Of a stretch of 64,000 nucleotides of DNA, positions 8,258 to 63,922 are shown piece after piece. Below the pieces are notes generated by a model. That model was given only the letters and a program-made list of their open reading frames with translations, was not told the DNA's origin and made no database searches. The position numbers were made by a program, and so were the translations under genes. The stretch covers positions 1-64,000 of the forward strand of contig JAOGIM010000008.1 of assembly GCA_028150825.1 (NCBI GenBank), given 5' to 3'. The stretch is from Paracoccaceae bacterium. GTDB lineage: Bacteria > Pseudomonadota > Alphaproteobacteria > Rhodobacterales > Rhodobacteraceae. How positions within the stretch are numbered: the first letter of the stretch is position 1; each line of letters begins with the position of its first letter.

Positions 8258-9796
8258 ATGGGTATCCAAGCAGCCGAAATTTCTGCAATTCTAAAAGAAC
8301 AAATTAAAAACTTTGGCCAAGACGCGGAAGTCGCCGAAGTAGGGCGCGTGCTCTCCGTTGGTGACGGTATCGCCCGTGTTCACGGATTAGATCAAGTTCA
8401 GGCCGGTGAGATGGTCGAGTTCCCGGGTGGCATCAAAGGTATGGCATTGAACTTAGAAGCTGACAATGTAGGTGTAGTTATCTTTGGTAGCGACCGCGAC
8501 ATTTCGGAAGGTGACGTTGTCAAACGTACAAATTCGATCGTTGATGTTCCGGCCGGCAATGAGCTTCTAGGCCGAGTGGTAGATGGACTGGGCAACCCTA
8601 TTGACGGAAAAGGCCCGATCGCCTCATCTGAGCGCCGCGTCGCAGACGTCAAAGCGCCTGGAATTATACCGCGAAAATCTGTTCATGAGCCGATGGCGAC
8701 TGGTCTGAAATCGGTTGACGCTATGATCCCGATTGGTCGGGGCCAGCGTGAGCTGATCATTGGGGACCGCCAAACTGGTAAAACAGCGGTTGCGCTCGAT
8801 GCGATCCTCAACCAGAAAAGCTATAATGAGGCGGCTGGAGACGACGAGAGCAAGAAGCTCTATTGCATCTATGTTGCTGTGGGTCAGAAAAGATCAACAG
8901 TTGCCCAGCTGGTGAAAAAGCTTGAAGAGAGTGGCGCGATGGAATACACTATTGTTGTTGCTGCGACAGCCTCTGATCCTGCTCCAATGCAGTTTCTTGC
9001 GCCCTATTCGGCGACATCTATGGCGGAATTCTTCCGCGACAATGGCCGCCATGCATTGATAGTTTATGATGATCTTTCAAAACAGGCTGTTTCTTACCGG
9101 CAGATGTCACTTCTTCTACGTCGTCCCCCAGGGCGTGAAGCTTATCCTGGAGATGTTTTCTACCTTCATTCACGTTTGCTAGAGCGTTCTGCGAAGTTGA
9201 ACGAAGATAACGGATCGGGCTCTTTGACCGCTTTGCCAATCATCGAAACACAAGGTGGCGATGTGTCTGCGTTTATACCGACGAACGTGATTTCTATTAC
9301 GGATGGCCAGATCTTCTTGGAAACAGAATTGTTTTACCAAGGTATCCGTCCTGCGGTAAATACTGGTTTGTCAGTTTCCCGAGTTGGGTCATCGGCTCAG
9401 ACATCCGCGATGAAAACTGTAGCTGGCCCGGTAAAGCTTGAGTTGGCTCAGTATCGCGAAATGGCTGCCTTTGCTCAATTTGGATCTGATCTAGACGCTG
9501 CAACTCAGGCATTGCTTAACCGCGGAGCACGTTTGACAGAACTTATGAAGCAATCTCAGTACGCTCCTCTGACGAATGCAGAAATAGTATGCGTTATTTT
9601 TGCTGGAACGAGTGGCTACCTTGACGAGGTGCCTGTCAAAGAAGTAGGCCGTTTCGAGGCCGGCATGCTGGCTCATCTTCGCAATAAACACTCTGATCTT
9701 CTTGACTTTATTACTAAGGAAGATCCGAAGGTCAAAGGCGAAGCCGAAGATAGGATCAGGTCAGTTCTTGATGAATACGCAGCAGATTTTGCGTAA
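8258..9796 (+). CDS. atpA: ATP synthase F1 subunit alpha
   Basis: This is the non-catalytic nucleotide-binding subunit of the F1 hexamer. The 512 residues have the beta-barrel N domain, Walker A GDRQTGKT at about 169-176, Walker [10 protein letters not shown] and the alpha/beta signature [13 protein letters not shown]. Length and ends match the family. The ATG directly follows the atpH stop codon, indicating translational coupling within the atp operon. Confidence 0.98.
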
Positions 9797-13851: not shown

Positions 13852-14415
13852 ATTTTTTTCCTCGGTTTGTTATTCCATTCCCATGAAAGTGAATCCTACA
13901 CAGGTATAAGAGGCTTTTCGCCTTTTTCGCTGTGCTTTTGCAAGAGATGGAGAGTTGTTTGGTGTTTGCGAGCTAAAAATGATGCAGCATTGCCACAGTT
14001 CTCGTCCTTAAATCATTTTTTTAAATGCTAATATCGTCTACTTTTGGTTTAACTACTAATTTTTGTAATTTTGATTTTACGTAATGTTTCAATGTGTTTC
14101 GTTTCTGTGGCGATTTGTGATCAGAAGTCAATATTCAACTCTCTCAAATTGGATGATCGCACTTTGATTCTTTTAAAATTGCATTTCAGTTGAAACTTTT
14201 TTTAAAATAACAAGACCGTGAATTAAGTTTCTTGGAGCTTTGTTGGCAAATTGTCGACGCAGTATTTGCGTATAAGAATGCAGGTTAATCATTGTAAACT
14301 TAACTTATTTATTAGAAATTTTTTTCTAATACTTAATTGATAGTTATCTCTCTGGACCCTTTGCCCGCAAAGCCTTATCAGAGGGTCGATAATAGTTTCA
14401 CAAAGGAAATGATCC
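13852..14415. other. Divergent promoter region between porin 1 and leuS
   Basis: About 560 A+T-rich bases upstream of both a minus-strand porin and plus-strand leuS. It has no credible gene. It presumably holds the strong porin promoter and the leuS promoter plus the leader hairpin at 14355-14387. Confidence 0.6.
14355..14387 (+). promoter_or_regulatory. Hairpin in the leuS leader
   Basis: GACCCT at 14355-14360 pairs with AGGGTC at 14382-14387, enclosing a second small inverted repeat (TTTG/CAAA around CCCG). It ends 28 bases before the leuS ATG. A regulatory role is inference only; no known riboswitch class is recognised. Confidence 0.3.
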
Positions 14416-16980
14416 ATGTCACGCTATTTAGCTGCTGAGATTGAGCCAAAATGGCAAAAAGCTTGGGACAATTTCGAGGTATTTAAAGCTGTACGAGATG
14501 AGAACCGTCCCAAGTATTACGTGCTAGAAATGTTTCCTTATCCTTCCGGGAAATTACATATCGGTCATGTGCGAAACTATACAATGGGCGATGTGATTGC
14601 ACGCTATAAAATGAGCACAGGTCACAATGTCTTGCATCCTATGGGTTGGGACGCTTTTGGTATGCCGGCTGAAAATGCAGCGATGGCCATAGGAGGCCAC
14701 CCCAAAGAATGGACGTATGGCAATATCAATCAGATGCGCCAACAGATGAAGCCACTTGGGCTTTCAATTGACTGGTCACGTGAATTTGCCACTTGCGACC
14801 CGGAATATTACGGGCAGCAACAGGCTTTGTTTTTAGACTTTCTTAACAAAGGCTTGGTCTATCGCAAAAATGCCGTCGTAAATTGGGATCCAGTTGATAT
14901 GACCGTTTTGGCCAATGAGCAAGTCGAGAGTGGTCGAGGATGGCGCTCAGGGGCCTTGGTCGAACGACGCGAATTAACACAATGGTTTTTTAAGATTTCA
15001 GACTATGCCGGCGACTTACTTGACGCTATTGATGTGCTGGATGACTGGCCTGCCAAAGTTAAACTAATGCAGGCAAATTGGATTGGGAAATCGCGCGGTC
15101 TTGAATTCAGCTTTGAAACCATAGGGGCCCCAGATGGCTTTGATGAGATAGATGTTTATACAACACGACCAGATACCCTTCTGGGCGCTTCGTTTGTCGG
15201 TATTTCCTCAGATCATCCATTGGCTCGTTACCTTGAGACTGAGAATCGTGATATTGCAGCATTCAACAAAGAGTGCAGGCAGATGAGTACTTCTGAGGCC
15301 GATATGGAAAAGGCCGATAAAAAAGGTATTGATACTGGCATTAGAGTGCGCCATCCTCTAAACCCAGCCTGGGAATTACCAGTTTGGGTCGCAAACTTTG
15401 TTTTGATGGATTACGGAACCGGCGCTATTTTTGCCTGCCCTGCGCATGATCAACGCGACTTAGATTTCTCACTCAAATATAATCTCGAGGTCAAAGATAC
15501 TTTCTTTGCCTTAGAGAATGAAACGCCCGTGGGAACTAAGGCATTCGTCCCGCCCAAAAGCGAAAAGGTGAGATGGATAAACCACTTTGCAGGTCTGGGT
15601 GTTGCAACAGGCCAGGAAGCTATTGATGCTACGATTACCCATGCCGAAAGCCATGGCTGGGGAAAGGGCGTCACCAACTATCGACTACGCGACTGGGGCT
15701 TGAGCCGACAACGCTATTGGGGCTGCCCCATCCCTGTGGTTCACTGTGTAACCTGCGGTGTTGTACCAGAAAAAAAAGAAAACCTCCCCATCCGCTTGCC
15801 AGATGACGTGACTTTTGATAAACCCGGTAATCCCTTGAACCGCCATGCTACTTGGCGCGATTGCGCCTGTCCATCATGTGGAGCTCCAGCTCAGCGTGAA
15901 ACAGATACCATGGATACATTTGTAGATAGTTCCTGGTATTTTGCCCGTTTCACTTCTCCAGATGCAGCGACCCCCACAGATCAGGAAGACCTAAATTACT
16001 GGATGAATGTTGATCAATATATCGGCGGCGTGGAACATGCTATCTTGCATCTGTTATATTCACGGTTTTTCTGCCGTGCCATGCAGTTAACAGGGCATGC
16101 AAATCAGAAAAATGCGCAAGAGCCCTTTAATGCTCTCTTCACGCAAGGCATGGTTACTCATGCGATATTCAAAACGGCTAAGGATGACGGGCGGCCAGTC
16201 TACCACTATCCCGAAGAAGTCGAATTGCGTGAAAACAAGGCTTATTTGATCGCAGATGGGCGGGAAGTTGACATCGTTCCGTCCTCCAAGATGTCCAAAT
16301 CAAAGAACAATGTTGTCGATCCTGAACGGATCATCGAACAGTATGGGGCCGACACAGCGCGTTGGTTTGTTCTTTCAGATAGCCCTCCGGAAAGAGATGT
16401 AGAATGGACTGCGAGTGGCGCAGAGGCGGCCTACAAGTTTCTTGGCCGGGTTTGGTTAATCTCTCATCGAGTGGCACAAATGCCTTCAGACGAGCTCACT
16501 GATAGTGATAACGACCTCTTGCAGGAAATGCATAAAACAATCCGTGACGTGACCTTAGGCATAGAAAGCTTTGGATTTAATGCTGCTATTGCAAAGCTTT
16601 ATTCTTTCACCAATACGCTGTCTAAATCCAAAGCAAGTGCCGTGGCGCAAAAACTATCCATTATTACGCTTGCCCAACTGATGTCGCCAATGACACCACA
16701 TCTGGCAGAAGATATCTGGCAGCATCAGGGTGGCACTGGATTTATTGCACAGGCTCCTTGGCCAGTTTTTGACAAAAATATGTTGGTTGAAACAACAGTC
16801 ACTCTTCCCGTCCAAGTCAATGGAAAGCGGCGTGCTGAAATTACAATTGCTAAAGATCTTGAGAAATCTGAAGTTGAAAAACTGGCGTTGATGCAAGAGG
16901 CTGTGATCAGGGCACTCGAAGGTGCAGACCCAAAAAAAGTTATTGTCGTACCGGGGCGGATTGTAAATGTGGTGGCCTAG
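14416..16980 (+). CDS. leuS: Leucyl-tRNA synthetase
   Basis: It charges tRNA-Leu with leucine. The 854 residues carry the class I motifs: the HIGH-type motif in [13 protein letters not shown] near residue 45 and KMSKS in [10 protein letters not shown] near residue 625. Between them lies the CP1 editing domain with [13 protein letters not shown]. Zinc-binding type cysteines occur around CVTCG and CPSCGAP. The start ATG has AAAGGAAATG upstream. The 3' end overlaps lptE by 14 bases, so leuS-lptE-holA is one operon. Confidence 0.98.
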
Positions 16981-44896: not shown

Positions 44897-46000
44897 TTAG
44901 TTTCTGGGTTTGGATTGAAAAGACCTATTCATCACAGCGTAAAATTTTATCTTTTCTAGAAGGGCTTCCTGTGTCAGACCAAGGTTTTGCGCTGCTTTCT
45001 CTACGCTACCGTTTGCATAATCAAGGGCTGTGGTTATCAATTTTTCTTCAATTTCCGATAAGAATTGATTTAAGTTAAGGGGTTGGTTTCTTGCAAAGTA
45101 GCTGGCAAAGTCGTGCTTTTCTTGAAAGGAACCCCCAGCAGAGACTGGAATATCATTCATCGCTATGGATCCGACGTCGTCCCAAAGGCTCGCTTGGGCA
45201 ATCTCGCTGCCTTCGCCAGTTTCAAAGTTTGGCATAAGCGGTTTTATTTTGTCGATACCGAGCGTCTGACCACTGAAAAGAACTGAGCATTTTTGTAAAA
45301 AATTTGCCAGTTCACGTATATTACCAGGCCATGAGTATGCTCTTAGAAAGCCCATTGCTTCGGGATCAAAACGTGCTGGCAGAATTTTCTTTTCAGTTTT
45401 TTTTAGGCGTAAAGATAGAACTGTAATAAGCTCCTCTAAATCTTCAGTACGCTCTGCCAATGGTGGATTTTCGATTGTATAAACAGCGATGCGGTAGAGC
45501 AGGTCTGCCCTGAATTTTCCTTGTCGGGCTAAATCGCCAATATCGGTATGAGTGGCGCAGACAAGTCTAAAATCCACCGGTGTGGACTTTTCGGAGCCGA
45601 TTTTCTGCACTGTTTTTGTTTCCAGAACGCGGAGTAATTTAGCTTGCAGAGAAAATGGCATGTCACCAATTTCATCCAGGAAAAGGGTTCCGTCAGCGGC
45701 CTCTTCTACTTTGCCTTTTCGCGCTTTGTCGGCTCCTGTAAAAGAGCCTTTTTCATAACCAAAAAGTTCAGCCTCTAAAAGTTCCGAAGGAATAGCGGCA
45801 GAGTTTACGGCGACAAAGTTTCCTTTCCTACCAGAGAGCTTATGAATTCCCTTGGCGATAAGTTCTTTGCCAGAACCTGTTGGGCCAACTGCAAGCACAT
45901 TAACGGGATAGGGAGCAGCCATTTCTATATGTTGGCGTACATCTTGTATTTGGTCGGAAGACCCTGCTATCAAATTGTCAAGAAATTTAGAACCTGCCAT
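44897..46000 (-). CDS. fleQ: Sigma-54 activator FleQ-like, with Fis HTH and no receiver domain
   Basis: The 367-residue protein begins directly with the AAA+ sigma-54 interaction domain: Walker A GPTGSGKE at 39-46, the sigma-54 contact loop as GSFTGA (85-90, instead of GAFTGA), Walker B TLFLDEIGD and the arginine-finger region YSWPGNIRELANF. A Fis-type helix-turn-helix ends it (about 310-355, EKAAQNLGLTQEALLEKI). No N-terminal receiver is present. It is divergent from the fleT-like gene at the head of the flagellar operon. In Rhodobacter sphaeroides FleQ is the DNA-binding partner in a FleQ/FleT activator of Fla1 flagellar genes; the assignment here is by architecture and position. Confidence 0.82.
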   Translation of the reverse strand: MAGSKFLDNLIAGSSDQIQDVRQHIEMAAPYPVNVLAVGPTGSGKELIAKGIHKLSGRKGNFVAVNSAAIPSELLEAELFGYEKGSFTGADKARKGKVEEAADGTLFLDEIGDMPFSLQAKLLRVLETKTVQKIGSEKSTPVDFRLVCATHTDIGDLARQGKFRADLLYRIAVYTIENPPLAERTEDLEELITVLSLRLKKTEKKILPARFDPEAMGFLRAYSWPGNIRELANFLQKCSVLFSGQTLGIDKIKPLMPNFETGEGSEIAQASLWDDVGSIAMNDIPVSAGGSFQEKHDFASYFARNQPLNLNQFLSEIEEKLITTALDYANGSVEKAAQNLGLTQEALLEKIKFYAVMNRSFQSKPRN

Positions 46001-46115: not shown

Positions 46116-46131
46116 TGGCACGCAAATTGCC
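46116..46131 (+). promoter_or_regulatory. Sigma-54 (-24/-12) promoter of fleT
   Basis: TGGCAC, five bases, then TTGCC fits the consensus TGGCAC-N5-TTGCW except for the last base. The expected start site near 46142 leaves a leader of about 15 bases with the GGAG ribosome site. Confidence 0.88.
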
Positions 46132-46156: not shown

Positions 46157-47311
46157 ATGCTTTACTCGATACAGGTCTGTAATTTTGCTGCTGCTTTGCC
46201 TATTTCGCGTATACTTCAAAATTATCAGTGCCCAACAATTGAGCACCTCGACAAACAATCTGGGATTGAGCGCGGTGGTCAAAAAGTAAAGGCAATTTTG
46301 AGCTTGGCCTTTGAAAAAGAAATAGGCGGTCTGAAAAACGTTGTCGAGCTAATCAAAAGACGCGGTGCTAAATCCCTAGCTATTATCGAAGAGAATGCAA
46401 AGTCGTTTTCTGTAGAGCGTTCTATGAATGGTGCTTTGCTACGTATAGCTCTACCCAAAACTGAACACTCCCTTGAAAAACAGTTTTTACTGAACCTTGC
46501 GGTGAGTTTCATCACGGAAGGTGAAAGTACCATTGCAGCGGATCCGCGCTCTATCGATCTTCTGACACTCAGCCGGAAGGTCGCAAAATCAAACGTAAAT
46601 GTTTTTGTGAATGGTCCTACTGGAAGTGGCAAAGAAATTCTCGCGCAGTACATCCATAAAAACTCTCCACGTGGCTCAAACGCTTTTGTGGCAATTAACT
46701 GTGCAGCGATCCCGGAAAATATGTTAGAAGCTTTGTTGTTTGGTCACAAGAAAGGGGCGTTTACTGGGGCATCTACTGCCAGTGATGGCATTTTCAAAGC
46801 GGCTGATGGCGGGACTTTACTGCTTGATGAGGTGTCTGAAATGTCCATGCCGCTGCAAGCGAAGCTGCTAAGAGTGCTGCAAGAAAAATCTGTTGTGCCG
46901 CTTGGTGCTTCTACGGCGATTCCAATCGATGTTAGGACTCTGGCAACCTCGAACCGCAATATTCCACAAGAGATTAAATTTGGGCGTTTTCGCGAAGACT
47001 TATATTTTAGGTTGAACGTATTTCCACTGGCCACTTATGCATTGAATGATCGCGCGGCAGATATCATTCCAATTACTGCAGAATTACTGGTGAGGCACCA
47101 GACAGACCTTGAAGATTTTCCAATCATATCTGGTCCAGCACTAAAAATCTTGCACGATTACACTTGGCCAGGAAATGTTCGAGAATTGGAAAATGTTATC
47201 CAACGCGCCACGGTATTACGCAATGATCGTTTTATTGGCGTTGAAGACATTATGATCGACCGTCCAATGGTTGAAGAAGACACAGTACCCGCAATGGTAG
47301 CACAGGTCTGA
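46157..47311 (+). CDS. fleT: Sigma-54 activator FleT-like, without DNA-binding domain
   Basis: The 384-residue protein has an unassigned N-terminal part (1-125), then a full AAA+ sigma-54 interaction domain: Walker A GPTGSGKE at 153-160, GAFTGA at 200-205, TLLLDEVSEM and YTWPGNVRELENVIQRA. It ends about 30 residues later without a helix-turn-helix. This matches FleT of Rhodobacter sphaeroides, which needs FleQ for DNA binding. GGAGAG precedes the ATG and a -24/-12 promoter lies 26 bases further up. FliE starts 12 bases downstream, so fleT heads fliEFGHIJ. Confidence 0.83.
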   Translation: MLYSIQVCNFAAALPISRILQNYQCPTIEHLDKQSGIERGGQKVKAILSLAFEKEIGGLKNVVELIKRRGAKSLAIIEENAKSFSVERSMNGALLRIALPKTEHSLEKQFLLNLAVSFITEGESTIAADPRSIDLLTLSRKVAKSNVNVFVNGPTGSGKEILAQYIHKNSPRGSNAFVAINCAAIPENMLEALLFGHKKGAFTGASTASDGIFKAADGGTLLLDEVSEMSMPLQAKLLRVLQEKSVVPLGASTAIPIDVRTLATSNRNIPQEIKFGRFREDLYFRLNVFPLATYALNDRAADIIPITAELLVRHQTDLEDFPIISGPALKILHDYTWPGNVRELENVIQRATVLRNDRFIGVEDIMIDRPMVEEDTVPAMVAQV

Positions 47312-53246: not shown

Positions 53247-53312
53247 CAAAGACATTACTTGCTCATCGCAAGCGACTTGTAAGTTCTGAATGCCGATTAT
53301 ACCAGACTAATT

Positions 53313-53328
53313 TGGCATACAACTTGCA
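53313..53328 (+). promoter_or_regulatory. Sigma-54 (-24/-12) promoter of fliK
   Basis: TGGCAT, five bases, then TTGCA is a near-perfect -24/-12 element. The expected start near 53339 precedes the fliK ATG at 53363 by about 24 bases. It excludes the upstream in-frame start at 53312. Confidence 0.88.
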
Positions 53329-53362
53329 ACAAGTCATCAGAATCTATCAAGGTGACCGCATT

Positions 53363-56300
53363 ATGAGTTTCGTAAATTCCTCACTATTAAACACAGGTGT
53401 AGTGTCCTCTAACCTGAGTTCTGAGACAATTGCTGCCGGTGAAAGTGGGGATTTAAATCAGGAATTTTCCAAAATGTTGCAATATTTGCGGCAAGAACAG
53501 AGTGGAAAAGAAGATTATGAGCCAAAACACGGAGTAGCCAAAGAGGGTTTATCGAAAGAGCATTCCACAAACTTCGAAGCGCCAATGAAAAACCTTTTAG
53601 GATTTTTGGAAACGTTCGAAGGTCAGGTGGCAAAAGTTTCTGGACCCAAATCGAGCGAAGCGAATGCAGCTTTGGCACCGGTAGCGGATAAGCTAGCATC
53701 ATTAGCCCAATTTTTGAGCATTTTGCAAGAAAAGTTAAATGAGGGCTCTGGAAGCCCAGTTGAAAAGGTCGTCATGCATGCTGATGCCGGTGTTGATAAC
53801 CTCGACCTCAATGAACTTGCCGACGAGTTGACACAGGTCAGAGTCGTCTCTGACCAACTCAATGGCCCCTCTAAATTACCAATATTTAGAGATAAAATTA
53901 AGAGTCTACCAGTAATCAATTCTAAAAATGATGTGTTCAAAAATGGCGCAACACTCATTGCCCCAGATACATCTGGCTTGAAAAGAGATGACAGCGGTAA
54001 TCCACTTGTGATTTCCAAAATGAAATCACACGGTGGTTTCGAGGCAAAGTCTCAGAGCCTGATTGCAAAAGATCTATCAAACACACTTTCACAACTTCAA
54101 GTGCTTGTTTCAAAGGTTAAGCTAGCATCAAGCGGTAGAAATGGAGAAGTGATTGCCTCTGATCCAGATGCGAGCAGAGTTGCTAATATTTTGGACGTGC
54201 TTAAAGGCATCGACCTTAACAAACTTTTTTCCAATTCTGACAAATCTACGGCGACTGCAGACATAGCACCAGACGTAATTAATAACCCCACCATAGATGA
54301 GCTTATGACAATTTTGAATAAGGTGAAATCTGAAGAAGGTTCACTGGCGTCGATTGAACGTCCCAAGGTCGCTAACGTTTCTGTTGCTAAAAAAAATGTC
54401 TCTGAAGGTCCTCCGCTATTGGAATTGCCTATGCGTACGTCTGATGTTGTGTTTGCATCAAAAAATGACATTACAAGCGTAGCTATCAAAAACCTCCCAC
54501 AAGCCCTACGTGCAATAACCGTACCGGTAGAGCAGCTCGCCGAAGAAATTTCTGCTGCTGATCTTTCGAGTGAAGTGGCGAAGGTTTCTGGCCAACATTC
54601 CATTACTTCGGTGAGTACGCCTGTGCAAAAGCCAGATACTGAAATGTTGACGGTAACAGACGTTGGTGTTGAAGCAGTTCGTGAAAGTGACATCACATAC
54701 AGCCGTGATGAAAAAATAGCGGTTAAATTAAACCAAGCATCAGCTCAAAGTCTAAAAACAATATCTACCAAAGAACTTATGCAAACTATGGAGACTGATG
54801 CTGTTTCAGGAGCTAATACTGCTAAAAAATTGTATTTCAAGTCGCCTGAACGATTAACAACACAGCCGGTTGGACAAGTGGCGCCCAAATTTCCTGAACA
54901 AGAGGTGCTAAAATCACCTGAACAAGAGGTGTTAAAATCACCTGAACAAGTGATGCTTGAATTACCTGAACAAGAGGTGTTAAAATCACCTGAACAAGTG
55001 ATGCTTAAATCACCTGAACAAGTGATGCTCAAATCACCTGAACAAGTGACGCCCAACTCACCTAAAAAAGCGATGCCCAAACCACCCGAAAACATCACAC
55101 CCAAATCACCTGTGGACTTAGAAGCACAGGAGATAAAGCCAACCCCTGAAATTGTCAAAAATTCAGCGCAGAGTTTTCAGGAGGGTGATATAAGTAAGAT
55201 AAATGTTGAGGCCAAAACAGTAAAGGCGCCTATCGAGCAAACAATACAACTTGACAATGAGACTGCCGTCACGGATGCAAAACTCAATCTCGAGCGGGCA
55301 GTCAAGAATAGTACGGTTGAAGTGCCGGATGTTAAATTGAAAACGGCTGAGCTCGCCGCTTCTGGAAAAATAGAAAAAAATGGATCTCTAAAAGTTTCAA
55401 AAGATGACATGCCTGCTCATCAAACGACTTTACGTAATAATTTAGACTTCAAAAGCGCAGATGTTAGCCTACAACCCAAAGTGGTCAAGGTGGCTATTCA
55501 AGATGTGAATGAGGTTAGACCCGAAGTTACTGCAAAGAGACTTGAAGTGTCAGACACTACTAAGCTGATGGAAACGGGCAAAGCTGAGCCTAAGTTAAGT
55601 GCTGAACTAGATAAGCGCCCTGTGTATGGCATTCCAAAAGATAATGAAAATCTTGAAAAAAGTTTTTCTAAAATGGCTGAAAAAGTGGCTGCTGCTAAGC
55701 AAGCGGTACCAGGTCAAAAATCCCAGCACGCCCAAGCCCAAGCTGCAGATATGTTCAATATTGAGCCTCCCAAGATAAGGCATCATTCTACGGGGGGAAA
55801 TACAACTCTGGGTCCGAAGCCTGTAACCAACTTCGTTGCACGAACAACTCAGACTTTCGTAGCCCAACATAAAGCTTTAGTACTCAAAAAATCGATGGGA
55901 GATGCTTCAGCTATGTCGTCTACCGTTGGCGTAAATGCCGACGCTGCAACAAGTCAGCAAATTGCGGCTTCGTCGGGCAGCCAAAGTCAGACAGGGCAGG
56001 GCTCAAGCGGGTCAAATATGCTTGAGAAATGGGCAGATAGCCATTTAGAACTAAGTTCCAGAGGCTGGGCAACCAATATGGCTAAAACGATGGTCTCAGC
56101 GTTGAACCGTGGTCAAGAAAGATTGATGTTCTCACTTTCGCCACCCTCATTGGGTCGCATTAGTATAGCCTTCACGAGCACCCGGGGTGCATTGGACGTG
56201 CGTATACAAGCAGAACGCAAGGCAACGATTGCACTTTTGGGCGATGCAGAAGGAAAATTGACGTCAAACCTAGAAAGTGCTGGTCATCGGGTGAACAGTC

Positions 56301-56497
56301 TTTCATACGCAGATATGAATTCGGATGGAGCAAAATTTGATTTTGATCATAATCAAAGTTCAAATAATGAGAATAAAGAAAAAGACAAAAGCGATTCTTT
56401 GCAAGAGGACAAATCTGCAAGTCGAGAGGTTATCGCCGAAGGCAGTGTGGTAACAAACAAAAAAGCAGATGACTCGCTTGTGAATATCACCGTTTAA
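53363..56497 (+). CDS. fliK: Flagellar hook-length control protein FliK, very long
   Basis: FliK measures hook length and switches export specificity. An open frame begins at 53312, inside the -24/-12 promoter, so the ATG at 53363 after AAGGTGACC is chosen; the protein then has 1044 residues, more than twice the usual size. Residues 1-850 are low-complexity and poorly conserved, including an 8-residue repeat block at about 508-587 (SPEQxVxLK type). The C-terminal Flg_hook domain is clear: AKTMVSALNRGQERLMFSLSPPSLGRISI and VRIQAERKATIALLGD (in parts). A Gln/Ser/Asn/Lys tail ends it. It heads fliKLMN. Confidence 0.88.
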   Translation: MSFVNSSLLNTGVVSSNLSSETIAAGESGDLNQEFSKMLQYLRQEQSGKEDYEPKHGVAKEGLSKEHSTNFEAPMKNLLGFLETFEGQVAKVSGPKSSEANAALAPVADKLASLAQFLSILQEKLNEGSGSPVEKVVMHADAGVDNLDLNELADELTQVRVVSDQLNGPSKLPIFRDKIKSLPVINSKNDVFKNGATLIAPDTSGLKRDDSGNPLVISKMKSHGGFEAKSQSLIAKDLSNTLSQLQVLVSKVKLASSGRNGEVIASDPDASRVANILDVLKGIDLNKLFSNSDKSTATADIAPDVINNPTIDELMTILNKVKSEEGSLASIERPKVANVSVAKKNVSEGPPLLELPMRTSDVVFASKNDITSVAIKNLPQALRAITVPVEQLAEEISAADLSSEVAKVSGQHSITSVSTPVQKPDTEMLTVTDVGVEAVRESDITYSRDEKIAVKLNQASAQSLKTISTKELMQTMETDAVSGANTAKKLYFKSPERLTTQPVGQVAPKFPEQEVLKSPEQEVLKSPEQVMLELPEQEVLKSPEQVMLKSPEQVMLKSPEQVTPNSPKKAMPKPPENITPKSPVDLEAQEIKPTPEIVKNSAQSFQEGDISKINVEAKTVKAPIEQTIQLDNETAVTDAKLNLERAVKNSTVEVPDVKLKTAELAASGKIEKNGSLKVSKDDMPAHQTTLRNNLDFKSADVSLQPKVVKVAIQDVNEVRPEVTAKRLEVSDTTKLMETGKAEPKLSAELDKRPVYGIPKDNENLEKSFSKMAEKVAAAKQAVPGQKSQHAQAQAADMFNIEPPKIRHHSTGGNTTLGPKPVTNFVARTTQTFVAQHKALVLKKSMGDASAMSSTVGVNADAATSQQIAASSGSQSQTGQGSSGSNMLEKWADSHLELSSRGWATNMAKTMVSALNRGQERLMFSLSPPSLGRISIAFTSTRGALDVRIQAERKATIALLGDAEGKLTSNLESAGHRVNSLSYADMNSDGAKFDFDHNQSSNNENKEKDKSDSLQEDKSASREVIAEGSVVTNKKADDSLVNITV
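54884..55123 (+). repeat. 24-bp tandem repeat array inside fliK
   Basis: About ten head-to-tail 24-bp units with the form AAATCACCTGAACAAGAGGT or variants encode an in-frame octapeptide of the type SPEQEVLK/SPEQVMLK. Units 2-7 are closest; units 8-10 are diverged (PPENITPK). The unit length keeps the frame, so copy-number change would alter FliK length in steps of eight residues. Confidence 0.93.
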
Positions 56498-58480: not shown

Positions 58481-58496
58481 TGGCACGATTTTTGCC
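58481..58496 (+). promoter_or_regulatory. Sigma-54 (-24/-12) promoter of fliO
   Basis: TGGCAC, five bases, then TTGCC lies wholly within the 41-base gap between fliN and fliO. The predicted start near 58507 falls in the AAAGGAGG ribosome site, giving a leader of only about 13 bases. Confidence 0.88.
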
Positions 58497-58519: not shown

Positions 58520-58810
58520 ATGAACGGTTTAGAAGACTTAAATCAGAAAATCATTATAGTTGTCGCCTTTACTGGGTTTTTGCTGCTTGTTTGGTGGTAC
58601 GTAAAAACCCAAGTCTCTAACACGGTCGACGTTGAAGGCAATGGAAAACTGAAGCATATTGAAAGCCGTAGACTTGCGCACGCTGCGATTTTATCAGTTT
58701 TCGAAGTCAACCAAAAAACTGTTTTAATTTTGCAAGATAAGCAAGGCGCCTCAGTTTTAGATATCTCTGCGACTGGCCAGAAGGGACGCGATAATGACGT
58801 CTTGGCTTAG
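58520..58810 (+). CDS. fliO: Flagellar biosynthesis protein FliO
   Basis: The 96-residue membrane protein has a single helix (about 10-28, IIIVVAFTGFLLLVWWYV) and a cytoplasmic part with KLKHIESRRLAHAAILSVFE and VLILQDKQGASVLDI, in keeping with FliO, which helps FliP assemble. AAAGGAGG stands seven bases before its ATG. It overlaps fliP by 17 bases. FliO is poorly conserved, so position between fliN and fliP matters to the call. Confidence 0.85.
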   Translation: MNGLEDLNQKIIIVVAFTGFLLLVWWYVKTQVSNTVDVEGNGKLKHIESRRLAHAAILSVFEVNQKTVLILQDKQGASVLDISATGQKGRDNDVLA

Positions 58811-59868: not shown

Positions 59869-60690
59869 ATGGAGGGCCTTTTAGTAGAGCAGACCACTGG
59901 TATTCCTGGGCTTTCACTGCCTAACCTTTTGCAGTTTATAACAGTCTTCTTCTTTAGTGCATTGCGCATTGGAGCATTCTTGATAACGGCTCCCTTCTTT
60001 GGCGCGACATCAGTCCCACTTTCAGTTCGTATCATGACAGGAATGGTTTTAGCAGTTGCTTTCATTGGCCAAGTGGATCCTTCTATTATTATACAAGCGG
60101 ATTTGGCAGATTTATTAAGAATGATTTTTGTCGAGCTGTTTATTGGAATTTGTATCGGTTTAATTGTAAGCATGCTGTTTGCCTCGGTGTCGCTGGCGGG
60201 TGAGAAAATAGCATCTTCTGGCGGGCTTGGGTTTGCAGCCCAAGTTGACCCAACAACAGGTGGACAAACGCCAGTTATAAGTAATCTTCTTACGCTGTTT
60301 TTGATAGTTATATTCTTATCTATTGATGGCCATCTGGCGCTCATTGGAGCCCTATATCATAGCTACAGTATATTTCCTCTTGGAGGGAATTTTCCAGTTC
60401 AGGCAGCTAGTGAGTATGGTGTGAAAACGGCGAGCCATATGTTTGAAATTGCCTCTGTTATAATGTTGCCAGTTGTAGCTTTGCTTTTGCTCACAAACTT
60501 TGCGGTGGGTGTTATCACACGGTCTTCTCCGCAACTAAACCTATTTTCTTTTGCCTTTCCAATTACAATGATGGTTGTTTTCTTGGCACTTTATGCCTCT
60601 GTAACGCCGCTTGGATATGGAATGGAAGAAATTGTCGAATTTAGCATTGATTACATGGATAAATTTTTCACGGAGATGCGTGATGGCTGA
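59869..60690 (+). CDS. fliR: Flagellar export gate protein FliR
   Basis: The 273-residue membrane protein has several helices and the family segments FFFSALRIGAFLITAPFFG, ELFIGICIGLIVSMLFASVS, GEKIASSGGLGFAAQVDPTTG and SPQLNLFSFAFPITM. FliR completes the FliP5-Q4-R1 gate. Its stop overlaps the flhB start by eight bases. Confidence 0.95.
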   Translation: MEGLLVEQTTGIPGLSLPNLLQFITVFFFSALRIGAFLITAPFFGATSVPLSVRIMTGMVLAVAFIGQVDPSIIIQADLADLLRMIFVELFIGICIGLIVSMLFASVSLAGEKIASSGGLGFAAQVDPTTGGQTPVISNLLTLFLIVIFLSIDGHLALIGALYHSYSIFPLGGNFPVQAASEYGVKTASHMFEIASVIMLPVVALLLLTNFAVGVITRSSPQLNLFSFAFPITMMVVFLALYASVTPLGYGMEEIVEFSIDYMDKFFTEMRDG

Positions 60691-61828
60691 AGAAGACGCC
60701 CAAGAAAAGACTGAGGAACCAACTGCCAAACGGTTAGAAAAGGCGTCAGAGGATGGAACAGTTCTACAATCAAAAGATCTTATGGTTTTTACAACGCTAT
60801 TTGTTGGATTACTAGTTTATTATGGGCTTTTGAATGTTTCAAATTTGATGCTTGGTCAGTGGGGTGCATTTTTCCGGTTTGATTTGAAAGAGTTCAAAGG
60901 GGAGGCAGTTCGGCTTTCCTTTGAGGCAGTGAAATACGTTGTAGTATGGGGTATGATTATAGGAATTCCGTTGGTTATTGGGATTTTAATGACGCAAGCC
61001 TCGCTTTCTGGAACTATTAATTTTGCTCCAAAGGCAATGGCATTCAAAGGTAATCGAATAAACCCTGTGAATGGGCTTAAACGAATGTTTGGCCCGAAAG
61101 CCTTATTTGAACTTGCAAAATCTGTAATAAAAGTGGTCTTTTTAATTGGAGCAGCGGCAGCAATAATTTTTGTACAGTTACCAATTCTTATGACTGCGTC
61201 GCATGCGGATTTAACGAACGGTTTGGGGCGGGTTCATGATGTATTCATTGCTTTATTTGTAACGTTGCTTCTAGTTTTGGCATTCATAGCGCTGTTAGAT
61301 GTTATGTATCAGCGATATACGCATGTAAAACAATTAAAAATGAGCAAACAGGAAGTGAAAGATGAGAATAAGCAAACTGAGGGTTCGCCAGAGGTTAAGG
61401 GTAAAATTCGAAGAATGCAGATGGAATCTTCGCAACGAGCCTCACAGCAACGCCAAGCATTAGGCGATGTACCGTCTGCGACTGCGATTATTACAAACCC
61501 GACCCATTTTGCTGTCGCTTTGAAATATGAGGTGGGTGAGCGTGGCGCCCCTGTTATCCTCGCTATGGGCCGTGGCAAAATGGCGGCTGACATTATTGAG
61601 ATTGCGAATAACGAAACTGTCCCAATCTTTCAGAGCCCACTGTTGGCGCGGGCTTTATTTTTTACCGGTAATATTGGTCAAGAAATTCATGAAGAATTGT
61701 TTAGTGCGGTGGCCGCTGTATTGGCGTTCATCTTCCGCATCGCCAACGGAGAAGAGTTAGAAGCGCCTGATGTCGAAATTCCAGATGATCTAAAGTTTAC
61801 CGAAACAGGAGGGCCGTTTAATGCCTAG
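60683..61828 (+). CDS. flhB: Flagellar export switch protein FlhB
   Basis: FlhB switches export from hook to filament substrates. The frame extends upstream to 60611, but the ATG at 60683 gives the usual start AEEDAQEKTEEPTAKRLEKA. The 381 residues have four membrane helices (about 30-215), a linker with KIRRMQMESSQRASQQR and the autocleavage motif NPTH at residues 272-275 (TNPTHFAVALKYE), so processing is expected. The FliK-dependent switch can thus operate. Its 3' end overlaps the next gene by eight bases. Confidence 0.96.
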   Translation: MAEEDAQEKTEEPTAKRLEKASEDGTVLQSKDLMVFTTLFVGLLVYYGLLNVSNLMLGQWGAFFRFDLKEFKGEAVRLSFEAVKYVVVWGMIIGIPLVIGILMTQASLSGTINFAPKAMAFKGNRINPVNGLKRMFGPKALFELAKSVIKVVFLIGAAAAIIFVQLPILMTASHADLTNGLGRVHDVFIALFVTLLLVLAFIALLDVMYQRYTHVKQLKMSKQEVKDENKQTEGSPEVKGKIRRMQMESSQRASQQRQALGDVPSATAIITNPTHFAVALKYEVGERGAPVILAMGRGKMAADIIEIANNETVPIFQSPLLARALFFTGNIGQEIHEELFSAVAAVLAFIFRIANGEELEAPDVEIPDDLKFTETGGPFNA

Positions 61829-62066
61829 ACTTACATATAAGAAATCGCTAAGCCTAGGAGAGGCTATAAGCTCTGTTTGTTTTTTTGGTGTTGGCGTTGT
61901 CTGGCTATCAGAGGGCATAGATTTTTACATCCTTAACCAATTTCTGCGAGCATTTGGACTATTCCTGTGTGCAATTTTGAGTTTTGCTGCGTGCCTGCGA
62001 TATGTCATTCAGAATGTCCTTTTTAAACTGATTTTTGGCGTTGATATTCATGAAACCGGAAAATAA
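61821..62066 (+). CDS. Small two-helix membrane protein after flhB, unknown function
   Basis: The 81-residue protein has two hydrophobic helices (about 14-31 and 38-62) with a short loop WLSEGIDFYILNQF, and charged ends (PRLTYKKS, HETGK). I do not recognise a family. AGGAGGG lies seven bases before the ATG, and the start overlaps the flhB stop by eight bases, so it should be translated with flhB. Position suggests a role in flagellar export or motor assembly, which is inference only. Confidence 0.7.
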   Translation: MPRLTYKKSLSLGEAISSVCFFGVGVVWLSEGIDFYILNQFLRAFGLFLCAILSFAACLRYVIQNVLFKLIFGVDIHETGK

Positions 62067-62262
62067 ATCACTCTGTCGCGGTTGTGGGCATTTTTACGTG
62101 ACTTACGATATGCATAAGCCGTGGGGTTGTCGCCATTTTGGCTTTAAATCTAAAAAATTGCCGGCTCAGTTGGTTACAGAAGTAAGTGGCACGAATTGTG
62201 CTTCTAAAGTTTTTAGAGCTCCGCTGGGGCAACAAAAAAGGAAACTGGCAGATGGCAGGTAA
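62050..62262 (+). CDS. Small four-cysteine, probably zinc-binding protein
   Basis: The 70-residue protein (ATG at 62050; a longer in-frame start at 62035 lies inside the preceding gene) has CRGCGHFYVTYDMHKPWGC and SGTNC, that is Cys9, Cys12, Cys27 and Cys50, a likely zinc site. The pattern resembles short proteins of other proteobacteria with CxxC-x2-YYVTWDPxxPxGC and MGFKSR, sometimes labelled uracil-DNA glycosylase, a name not justified by this sequence. A basic tail ends it. It overlaps neighbours on both sides (17 and 11 bases). The function is unknown. Confidence 0.72.
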   Translation: MKPENKSLCRGCGHFYVTYDMHKPWGCRHFGFKSKKLPAQLVTEVSGTNCASKVFRAPLGQQKRKLADGR

Positions 62263-63085
62263 TAAATCTGCAACACCGGCTGACGTTGAAAAGAGTATCC
62301 AGATTGCTTTAGACGCTGCGGATGCTGCAATGGATGTAACGTCCGAGTATGCGAAGGTTGCACAACAGATAAAAAAATCGACAAATATGCTCTCCAGTAT
62401 TGAGAAGCTGGGCAGGATTGGTGTCATAATCGGGTTTGTCACGGGGATCAGTGTAGCGGTCTTATCGCTTGTTATGTTTTTTTCAGCCTCCTCCAAGCTT
62501 AAAGTTCTGATGCAAACAAATACAGAACTTTTAACTGTGTTTGTTGAAAACGTCGATATTTTTAATGAGAATATCGCCAAGCTTGAACCGGCCTTGAATG
62601 ATCTAGATCTTTTAACCAAAGCTGTTGATAAAGTCGGATCTGGAATGATCTCTTATGGCGATAAGTCAGAGATGATGGGCTCGGAAATTAGAGTGGCGAT
62701 CGAAACAATGAACGGAATTACTCCTGCAGTCAGGTCTCAAATGGCAGATATGCAGGAAAAGACCTCCGTTATGAACTCAGAATTGACCATGTCCCTTGCC
62801 GAAATGACCAATGAAGAATTCAAAGCGCAAAACATGATTATGGGCAATTTTACGCGCTCTGTTATTGATGCGTTACAGTCTATGTCTGATACATCAGTTG
62901 ATGTCAAGGAACAGCGCGCCGCGGTTCAGTCACTGCAGGACGTCAATGCAGAACTTGCAGCTCGCATTGCAACATTAGATCAACGTTTAGATACGGCAAA
63001 ACGCGAGGCTTCGCGAGCTCGCAAGGCGGCCGCGGCCAAACCAAAGAAACAAGCGGTCAATGGCGATATCATCAAGTTCCCGTAG
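62252..63085 (+). CDS. Bitopic coiled-coil membrane protein, candidate MotF
   Basis: The frame opens at 62186, but the ATG at 62252 with AAGGA nine bases upstream is the better start and gives 277 residues. A cytoplasmic helical N terminus (1-52), one membrane helix (about 56-78, GVIIGFVTGISVAVLSLVMF) and a long helical region with a coiled coil near 215-265 are visible, ending in a Lys/Ala-rich tail. In Rhodobacter sphaeroides a bitopic protein MotF, encoded in the Fla1 cluster near flhA, is needed for motor rotation. Topology and position here fit that, but I could not compare sequences, so the identity is a hypothesis. Confidence 0.65.
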   Translation: MAGNKSATPADVEKSIQIALDAADAAMDVTSEYAKVAQQIKKSTNMLSSIEKLGRIGVIIGFVTGISVAVLSLVMFFSASSKLKVLMQTNTELLTVFVENVDIFNENIAKLEPALNDLDLLTKAVDKVGSGMISYGDKSEMMGSEIRVAIETMNGITPAVRSQMADMQEKTSVMNSELTMSLAEMTNEEFKAQNMIMGNFTRSVIDALQSMSDTSVDVKEQRAAVQSLQDVNAELAARIATLDQRLDTAKREASRARKAAAAKPKKQAVNGDIIKFP

Positions 63086-63115
63086 AATTCTACATATGCT
63101 AAGGTTTAATTCCTA

Positions 63116-63922
63116 ATGTCACAAGAAGAAATAGAAGCCGGAGCTGAGGCCAAAGATCAGGATATCGCTGATAAGGTTCTTGAAATTAAAAAAGTTGTCG
63201 GCGGGTATGGAAAGAATTTAGGCATTAGAAAAGCTGATGTCATCATTGGAGTTGATGGGGATGCATTTTTTGGTACGTCTAAAGAATTCAATGACTATTT
63301 TGATACCGATGAGGACGATGATATTGCACAAAGCCATAAGCTCGTTTTGACAATTAAACGGGAGGAAGCTGTTTTTAATGTTATTTGTCATCAGAAAATA
63401 TCCTGTAAATTCGAACAGGCAGAAAACCCCTACCCAAATCCCAGCGAATGGGTTCAACAGGCTTTAGCGATGGCAAAGCATGACGAACTAGCGGAGTACC
63501 TAATTTACTACGACAATAAGAAAAACGCGGAGCTTCTGTTGCGCTCCAAATCACTTTTGGCAATGGTTGTTCCGCCGTTTTGGTTTCTTAATCAAAGGAT
63601 GCCAGAAGCAATGGTCGCCAGTGTTCTTGGTGGACTAGCGACACTAACCGTTCATTGGAGTTTAGCTGTCATTTACTATGTAATTTTATGTCTTTACGTT
63701 GGGCGCGAGCAATTAAATATGGCTATGAACTTTATGAGCTACAAACGAATGATCTACATGCAGTCAATCGCGGCTATAAACGAACTGCAAGCCCAAATAG
63801 CAGCTTTGGCTATTGATAGTGACCTTTATTTCCAAAGACCTGTTGAGGGCTTGCTTCAGGAAAAAAAGCGACGCAAGAAAAAGTCAAAAACTGCAAGCTT
63901 GAACACGGTCACAGAGCAATGA
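63116..63922 (+). CDS. PDZ-like membrane protein after the flagellar genes, unknown function
   Basis: The 268-residue protein has an acidic start, then a region (about 25-100) that resembles a PDZ fold: NLGIRKADVIIGVDGDAFF followed by LVLTIKREEAVFNV. A helical segment follows, then two or three hydrophobic stretches (about 147-200, including SLAVIYYVILCLYVG), and a cytoplasmic helical tail ending in KKRRKKKSK. There is no protease motif. It follows the candidate MotF gene after 30 bases with AAGG upstream. The PDZ reading is by eye; the function is unknown. Confidence 0.6.
   Translation: MSQEEIEAGAEAKDQDIADKVLEIKKVVGGYGKNLGIRKADVIIGVDGDAFFGTSKEFNDYFDTDEDDDIAQSHKLVLTIKREEAVFNVICHQKISCKFEQAENPYPNPSEWVQQALAMAKHDELAEYLIYYDNKKNAELLLRSKSLLAMVVPPFWFLNQRMPEAMVASVLGGLATLTVHWSLAVIYYVILCLYVGREQLNMAMNFMSYKRMIYMQSIAAINELQAQIAALAIDSDLYFQRPVEGLLQEKKRRKKKSKTASLNTVTEQ

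Follow-up and report, generated by a model that had tools for sequence, protein, structure and literature searches.

In this study we describe four small genes, here called A, B, C and D, that follow flhB in a window of 64,000 nucleotides, positions 1 to 64,000 of contig JAOGIM010000008.1 of a Paracoccaceae bacterium. We propose, with moderate confidence, that A-D constitute an accessory module of the C. sphaeroides Fla1-type flagellar motor ('fla3-type' in the nomenclature of PMC12363192), in which C corresponds to MotF and D to its partner. MotF, previously regarded as a single lineage-restricted protein, belongs to a conserved four-gene set. Its PDZ neighbour is near-constant and is also present in the laboratory model C. 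sphaeroides, and MotF itself ends in a near-invariant pair of residues that is not visible from one sequence.

flhB itself (60683..61828, plus strand) is recognised by Pfam PF01312 (3.7e-102) and by alignment, and the four genes follow on the same strand. Gene A (61821..62066), which encodes an 81-residue two-helix membrane protein, overlaps flhB by 8 bases in the list of open reading frames. Gene B (62050..62262), for a 70-residue four-cysteine protein (CxxC...GC...C), overlaps A by 17 bases from its start at ATG 62050, TTG 62035 being an alternative upstream start. Gene C (62252..63085, 277 residues) overlaps B by 11 bases, and gene D (63116..63922), for a 268-residue membrane protein with a predicted PDZ domain, begins after a 30-base gap. 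These coordinates bear out the preliminary description of four small genes behind flhB, the first three overlapping and the fourth following after 30 bases. Comparison with the nearest relative, locus L136, gave nonsynonymous and synonymous divergences (dN/dS) of 0.07/1.64 for A, 0.11/0.55 for B, 0.02/1.22 for C and 0.154/1.86 for D. All four genes are therefore under purifying selection and, with dN so far below dS, are real genes. Searched against Pfam and NCBIfam with E values up to 1, the window proteins A and B matched no family, and C and D gave matches below the curated cut-offs only, those of C being mostly to coiled coils.

Judged by sequence and position, gene C is a MotF orthologue. 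A profile built from six C sequences, C. sphaeroides not among them, finds the C. sphaeroides gene (6e-22) between flhB and rpoN in genome G051, which is C. sphaeroides 2.4.1 (a replicon 99.9% identical over 6000 bases to plasmids of that name). The order in that Fla1 cluster is flhB-C-D-rpoN, and a search of the locus did not find A or B. The C. sphaeroides C protein has 239 residues, a mass of 24.77 kDa and its best 21-residue hydrophobic window at 54-74, in agreement with the published MotF (24 kDa, span from 54 to 74, large periplasmic C-terminus; PMC7277832), whereas the D protein of the same cluster, with its hydrophobic maximum at 134-154, does not fit that description. The transcript table of PMC9779115 lists flhB as RSP_0066 and RSP_0067 as hypothetical; this agrees with the number given in the preliminary description, and the tag fits either C or D. 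The window protein is longer than its C. sphaeroides counterpart and shares with it a membrane span (residues 58-76, hydropathy maximum, 62423..62479, plus strand), a long C-terminal part and the same type of ending. The two are 15% identical in the alignment, and all but three of 33 aligned C homologues are 13-27% identical to window C; the homologues keep an N-terminal helix motif (approximately I-x-x-AL-x-AA-x-A), the span and the C-terminal end. Position, profile homology and span thus all agree with the suggestion, made in the preliminary description, that the 62252 product might be the MotF of R. sphaeroides, as C. sphaeroides is called there, and one of the four genes is therefore already characterised. 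PMC7277832 describes a Mot minus phenotype for the motF mutant of C. sphaeroides, with suppressor mutations in the plug of motB; this need for rotation is known from C. sphaeroides only.

The name MotF covers a second protein. A reference title in PMC9812332 calls the MotF of Sinorhizobium and Agrobacterium a FliL paralogue. The S. meliloti protein is like that of C. sphaeroides in its name and in a suppressible motility defect, reported there to be suppressed by motA mutations. It differs in being called a FliL paralogue, whereas none of the 33 C homologues matches Pfam FliL at 0.01, this domain being absent from the 22 Pfam families that they match at that threshold.

The C-terminal end of MotF is a new feature of this family. 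The 68 loci sampled yield 61 distinct C sequences (L188, cut by a contig end, was dropped), and 60 of these have an [FY]P ending, which in the window takes the form of the tetrapeptide IKFP (63071..63082, plus strand). The ending tips a variable, often A/K/P-rich periplasmic stretch of MotF. Because the end is fixed while the rest of the protein drifts, we infer that it may serve as a docking tag.

The module accompanies one type of flagellar cluster. In a pilot search with single-protein queries, which covered 61 genomes of the family and among them that of the window, C was found in 6 and D in 4. The D and FlhB profiles were each searched in 394 genomes of the family under the same genome labels. 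D matched 105 genomes, 25 of them with a full-length protein (at least 121 bits, over most of its length); the other 80 match the PDZ part alone, at 30 bits or less and mostly in long frames, and were excluded from the D count as RseP-like to judge from their length. FlhB is present in 307 genomes and its scores split into 27 genomes at 440 bits or more and 280 at about 250 or less. All 25 genomes with full-length D fall inside the 27-genome class, with none among the 280, so that the association with Fla1-type clusters anticipated in the preliminary description was found for D. Of the 14 D loci that supplied the FlhB profile, 13 belong to the 27 high-scoring genomes; the association is therefore partly by construction, and our confidence in the accessory module was slightly lowered for this reason. 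Twelve of the 14 high-scoring genomes that gave no profile row have D. The FlhB proteins of the window and of C. sphaeroides score 608 and 598 bits respectively, in part by construction as both are profile rows; they are 47% identical to each other and belong to one class set apart from the rest, and to judge from these comparisons the window cluster is of the same, fla3-type kind as the C. sphaeroides RSP_0032-0083 cluster.

For the 27 genomes of this class our own count gives 25 with A, 15 with B, 26 with C and 25 with D. As C also occurs in further alphaproteobacterial families, the earlier statement that MotF is known from R. sphaeroides Fla1 alone no longer holds. The neighbourhoods of the 25 D genomes show flhB-A-B-C-D or a reduced form of it; G368 has A at flhB together with a C that is truncated where the contig ends, and its D sits on a different contig. 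All four genes are present in 54 of 70 loci examined; this count leaves out the copies L106 and L151 (of L015 and L016), includes the copies L111, L118, L131 and L145, and, with G903 apparently the genome of L122, holds loci that are not all independent. Overlaps are usual, A with B in 52 of 54 loci and B with C in 44 of 55, and C and D are at most 60 bases apart in 48 of 64. The order is kept at about 20% protein identity. Over 22 loci, the window locus not among them, the distances of C and D (r 0.83), C and FlhB (0.83) and D and FlhB (0.77) track each other (0 of 2000 permutations for the two comparisons with FlhB), as expected of parts inherited together, and those of FliP track the others less well (r 0.48-0.53). 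A class-wide search for D in 190 genomes gave six matches at E up to 1e-8, namely the window's own genome, four full-length matches from other families and G397 over the C-terminal part only; three of the four full-length loci show the order flhB-A-B-C-D, whereas the end of the contig truncates the fourth. Two loci have other frames at the module: in L019, which is without B, a minus-strand frame of ~700 bases (about 9000-9760) fills the space between A and C, and in L018 a minus-strand gene (14108-14677) lies beside C.

No relative of D was found in viral contigs, and D was found on one plasmid only, Octadecabacter arcticus pOA238_118. This plasmid also holds C by profile, and a tblastn search of plasmid records with two C proteins gave no match and is therefore not sensitive. 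Among the best 30 of 240 plasmid records the FlhB of pOA238_118 ranks first (51.3%), the other 29 standing at 37.2% or less. The single fla3-type cluster off the chromosome that is mentioned in PMC12363192 may be this Octadecabacter one.

In C. sphaeroides MotF is reported to be recruited through the H-ring protein FlgT (PMC7277832). FlgT_N was detected in 24 of the 27 genomes of the FlhB class, 20 of them over the curated cut-off, and in none of 27 flagellated controls, which were hand-picked from the upper part of the list and not random. Both the window genome and C. sphaeroides have FlgT.

Gene D appears to be an undescribed companion of MotF: in C. sphaeroides, where no A or B was found, it still adjoins MotF, and neither D nor the four-gene set is described in the literature titles and abstracts searched, a search that did not reach the original MotF paper. 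The AlphaFold model of D (mean predicted local distance difference test score, pLDDT, 91.6) consists of a PDZ domain at residues 17-103, a small alpha-beta part at 111-142, short helices, a helical hairpin (163-179/181-209) and a final strand and helix. Residues 17-103 (63164..63424, plus strand) are assigned to a PDZ domain by this model, by structural comparison and by profile match. In the VIA comparison GRASP and RseP PDZ domains rank first, GRASP65 being the best with Z 9.0 and RseP PDZ2 (3id4) giving Z 8.7 over 74 residues and a root-mean-square deviation of 1.8. The D profile matches DegP in the PDB (1.2e-5), and PDZ_6 is matched by five of seven D members (best 1.5e-4); DUF2628 gives a weak match to the C-terminal half in two of seven (best 1.1e-4). 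The likeness to RseP and DegP lies in the predicted fold and in this weak sequence match, whereas D differs in its membrane hairpin, in a model that lacks any protease part and in a PDZ domain that probably faces the cytoplasm. Membrane topology can be judged by the positive-inside rule. By this rule the PDZ domain of D is probably cytoplasmic, since none of 40 D proteins has a signal-like or hydrophobic N-terminus and 39 of 40 carry net positive charge behind the hairpin. The MotF end was also considered as a ligand of the D PDZ domain; with the end periplasmic, no signal on D and positive charge behind its hairpin, this is unlikely.

Gene A has two hydrophobic stretches by eye, and two of eight homologues match DUF2721 weakly (best 9.7e-4, below the cut-off). 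B has four cysteines that are invariant in 58 of 58 aligned members, and its family occurs in 82 of 398 genomes of the phylum. A scan for B gave 80 loci, including Zetaproteobacteria, Aquificota, Campylobacterales, Clostridia and others. B stands with C and D in 41 of these loci; flhB and A are there too in 40 of the 41, the exception being L116, which is truncated at its contig end. This recurrence of flhB-A-B-C-D agrees with the earlier view of the genes as a unit. Such loci come, among others, from Nereida ignava, HIMB11, a Lentibacter assembly, IMCC14465 and PS1-clade genomes, and several belong to genomes already covered by the family search. Three loci titled Arcticimaribacter (L110), Verrucomicrobiales (L129) and Flavobacteriales (L141) carry the same flagellar cluster with A-B-C-D and are probably mislabelled or mixed bins.

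The remaining 39 B loci are without A, C and D, and with a set of 18 query proteins, which had no hook or filament genes, only 3 of the 39 were found near fliN-fliM-fliG. Reading the neighbours by eye at 14 loci adds a flagellin gene some 2 kb away from B in L159 and, in L143 and L147, a flgF-like gene next to B; the neighbours of B outside the flagellar set are mixed. Descent of B as a flagellar protein in general was rejected on these counts, and the co-occurrence with flagellar clusters looked for in the preliminary description fails for B, a widespread family that elsewhere stands mostly in other contexts. Since the family is wide, its neighbours mixed and few of them flagellar, recruitment is the most likely explanation for the presence of B in the flagellar set. 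The three loci with fliN-fliM-fliG are L143, L147 and L156 (Aquificota), where these genes are encoded on the other strand at a distance from B of no more than about 1 kb.

These results have to be set beside the proposal that only MotF matters for the motor and that A, B and D are operon passengers with other functions in the cell, kept by linkage. The many B relatives outside flagellar clusters speak for it, as does the C. sphaeroides Fla1 cluster, where A and B were not found and whose Fla1 flagellum is reported to work (PMC7277832). We consider it unlikely, given the confinement of full-length D to 25 of the 27 class genomes, the purifying selection on all four genes and a gene order that lasts while the proteins diverge.

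A role of B in sensing a redox or metal state, as a [4Fe-4S] or zinc protein that tunes motility, would be compatible with the accessory module proposed here and is a tentative possibility. The invariant cysteines point to it, together with a weak hint of a high-potential iron-sulphur protein (HiPIP) in Foldseek (E 6.3, probability 0.10), a match of one of 14 members to Pfam BssB_TutG at 0.078 and equally weak zinc-ribbon hints. Against it, all these hints are below significance, no PDB relative was found by sequence, VIA gave no Z of 2 or more and the B model is of middling confidence (pLDDT 75). A search with PF18512 in 200 genomes gave two matches, both below the cut-off.

The preliminary description left open whether the genes serve the motor or export. 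Service of the whole module, or of its A-B part, to the export gate (FlhB) in place of the stator would explain why A overlaps or abuts flhB and stays there even in G027, G223 and G341, whose C and D are found at a different place or on a separate contig. We regard it as very improbable, as the motility defect of the C. sphaeroides motF mutant is suppressed in motB and no link of C or D to secretion was found. The motor half of that earlier suggestion is thus supported, through the identity of C with MotF, and no support was found for the export half as regards C and D.

We therefore return to the accessory module, for which the following mechanism may be envisaged. In C. sphaeroides MotF is reported to be recruited via FlgT (PMC7277832) and to act together with FliL to relieve the plug of MotB so that the stators conduct protons. 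The inner-membrane protein D most likely holds or positions MotF, or alternatively MotA/FliL, at the cytoplasmic side of the motor; that it works with MotF is suggested by their near-constant adjacency and shared presence. For the [FY]P end of MotF, docking into a partner in the periplasm is most likely; the conservation of the end, its location on the periplasmic side and the link of MotF to FlgT make FlgT the best candidate. The membrane hairpin protein A and the four-cysteine, presumably metal-binding protein B would be auxiliary and can be lost, and are best read as dispensable.

How stators come to open only at the completed motor is a long-standing question. A doubtful extension of the mechanism, which we put forward with this question in mind, is that MotF and D act as a two-sided clamp that licenses the stators, the [FY]P end plugging into the FlgT H-ring and the D PDZ domain holding the cytoplasmic side. 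If so, the stator would open only at a finished motor, under a PDZ-based, C-terminal-tag checkpoint reduced to its core in C. sphaeroides. We know of no such checkpoint in flagella.

Several observations weigh against the module as we propose it. Two genomes of the high-scoring FlhB class are without a full D: G275 has C, but a search beside its flhB did not find A, B or D, and in G076 A stands at flhB and D gives no full match, the search for C there covering only the surroundings of flhB. D therefore cannot be strictly required. No FlgT was found in G097, G172 and G176, three class genomes out of 27, and one C protein, that of G862, ends in KFSR. Single scores of C can be inflated by its partly coiled-coil nature, although the matches are supported by synteny, and Foldseek gave no PDB match for D at E 0.001 or below (best 8.6e-3). 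As the MotF end is periplasmic and the PDZ domain of D probably cytoplasmic, D cannot simply bind that end, and the B relatives outside flagella argue against a motor-specific role of B. Gene order, co-occurrence, the orthology of MotF, its conserved end and the predicted PDZ fold of D are observations, whereas the binding partners, the topology of D and the roles of A, B and D are deduced.

Two other accessory sets resemble the present one. Phaeobacter inhibens CP1-CP4 (PMC12363192) are likewise uncharacterised, cluster-specific proteins of Rhodobacterales flagella and are reported as essential for motility; by their description they are set apart, belonging to an archetypal fla1-type cluster. 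MotE/MotK of C. sphaeroides Fla2 and the FlgY E-ring (PMC10954123, PMC13023049) are also accessory and tied to stator function, and are set apart by a description that makes them periplasmic and part of the other flagellar set.

The module would be transcribed with the genes upstream of it. A sigma-54-type site, TGGCACGATTTTTGCC (58481..58496, plus strand), found by pattern scan, sits 23 bases upstream of fliO (58520..58810, plus strand), an open reading frame named from its position between fliN and fliP and the first gene of the likely transcript. With at most one mismatch the sigma-54 pattern has 9 sites in the window versus 2.9 expected. A slightly relaxed core pattern occurs in the fliN-fliP interval of 25 of 64 related loci, the window locus not among them, versus 98 of 3200 random segments, and 39 of the 64 have no match there; because these loci are related, the enrichment counts as no probability. 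The site is the likely promoter of a transcript from fliO to D, in keeping with the sigma-54 fliO promoter given in the preliminary description. No terminator was found in the stretch scanned directly behind D. An internal sigma-54 promoter at 62187 was rejected, as it has one mismatch and overlaps conserved B codons, and a core within 350 bases before C occurs in 3 of 62 loci.

The window is the beginning of a 71.6-kb contig in an assembly that is 62.7% complete. Past D lie a short fliD-like frame, rpoN, motB, motA and fliD. The short frame, on the minus strand (L014:4009-4470, contig ~64008-64469, just outside the window), resembles fliD at 3e-35, and a full fliD-like gene stands at L014:9704-11074. 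Where the window's contig has the short frame, the near relative L136 matches fliD far better (1e-131); the short frame is possibly a degraded fliD copy or a duplication. At the other end, the cluster is headed by a divergent pair (44897-46000, minus strand, and 46157-47311, plus strand) that is sigma-54-activator-like by eye and reminiscent of C. sphaeroides FleQ/FleT, with a sigma-54-like site at 46116. The fliK-like protein encoded at 53312-56497 contains, by eye, a run of near-identical SPEQ-type repeats.

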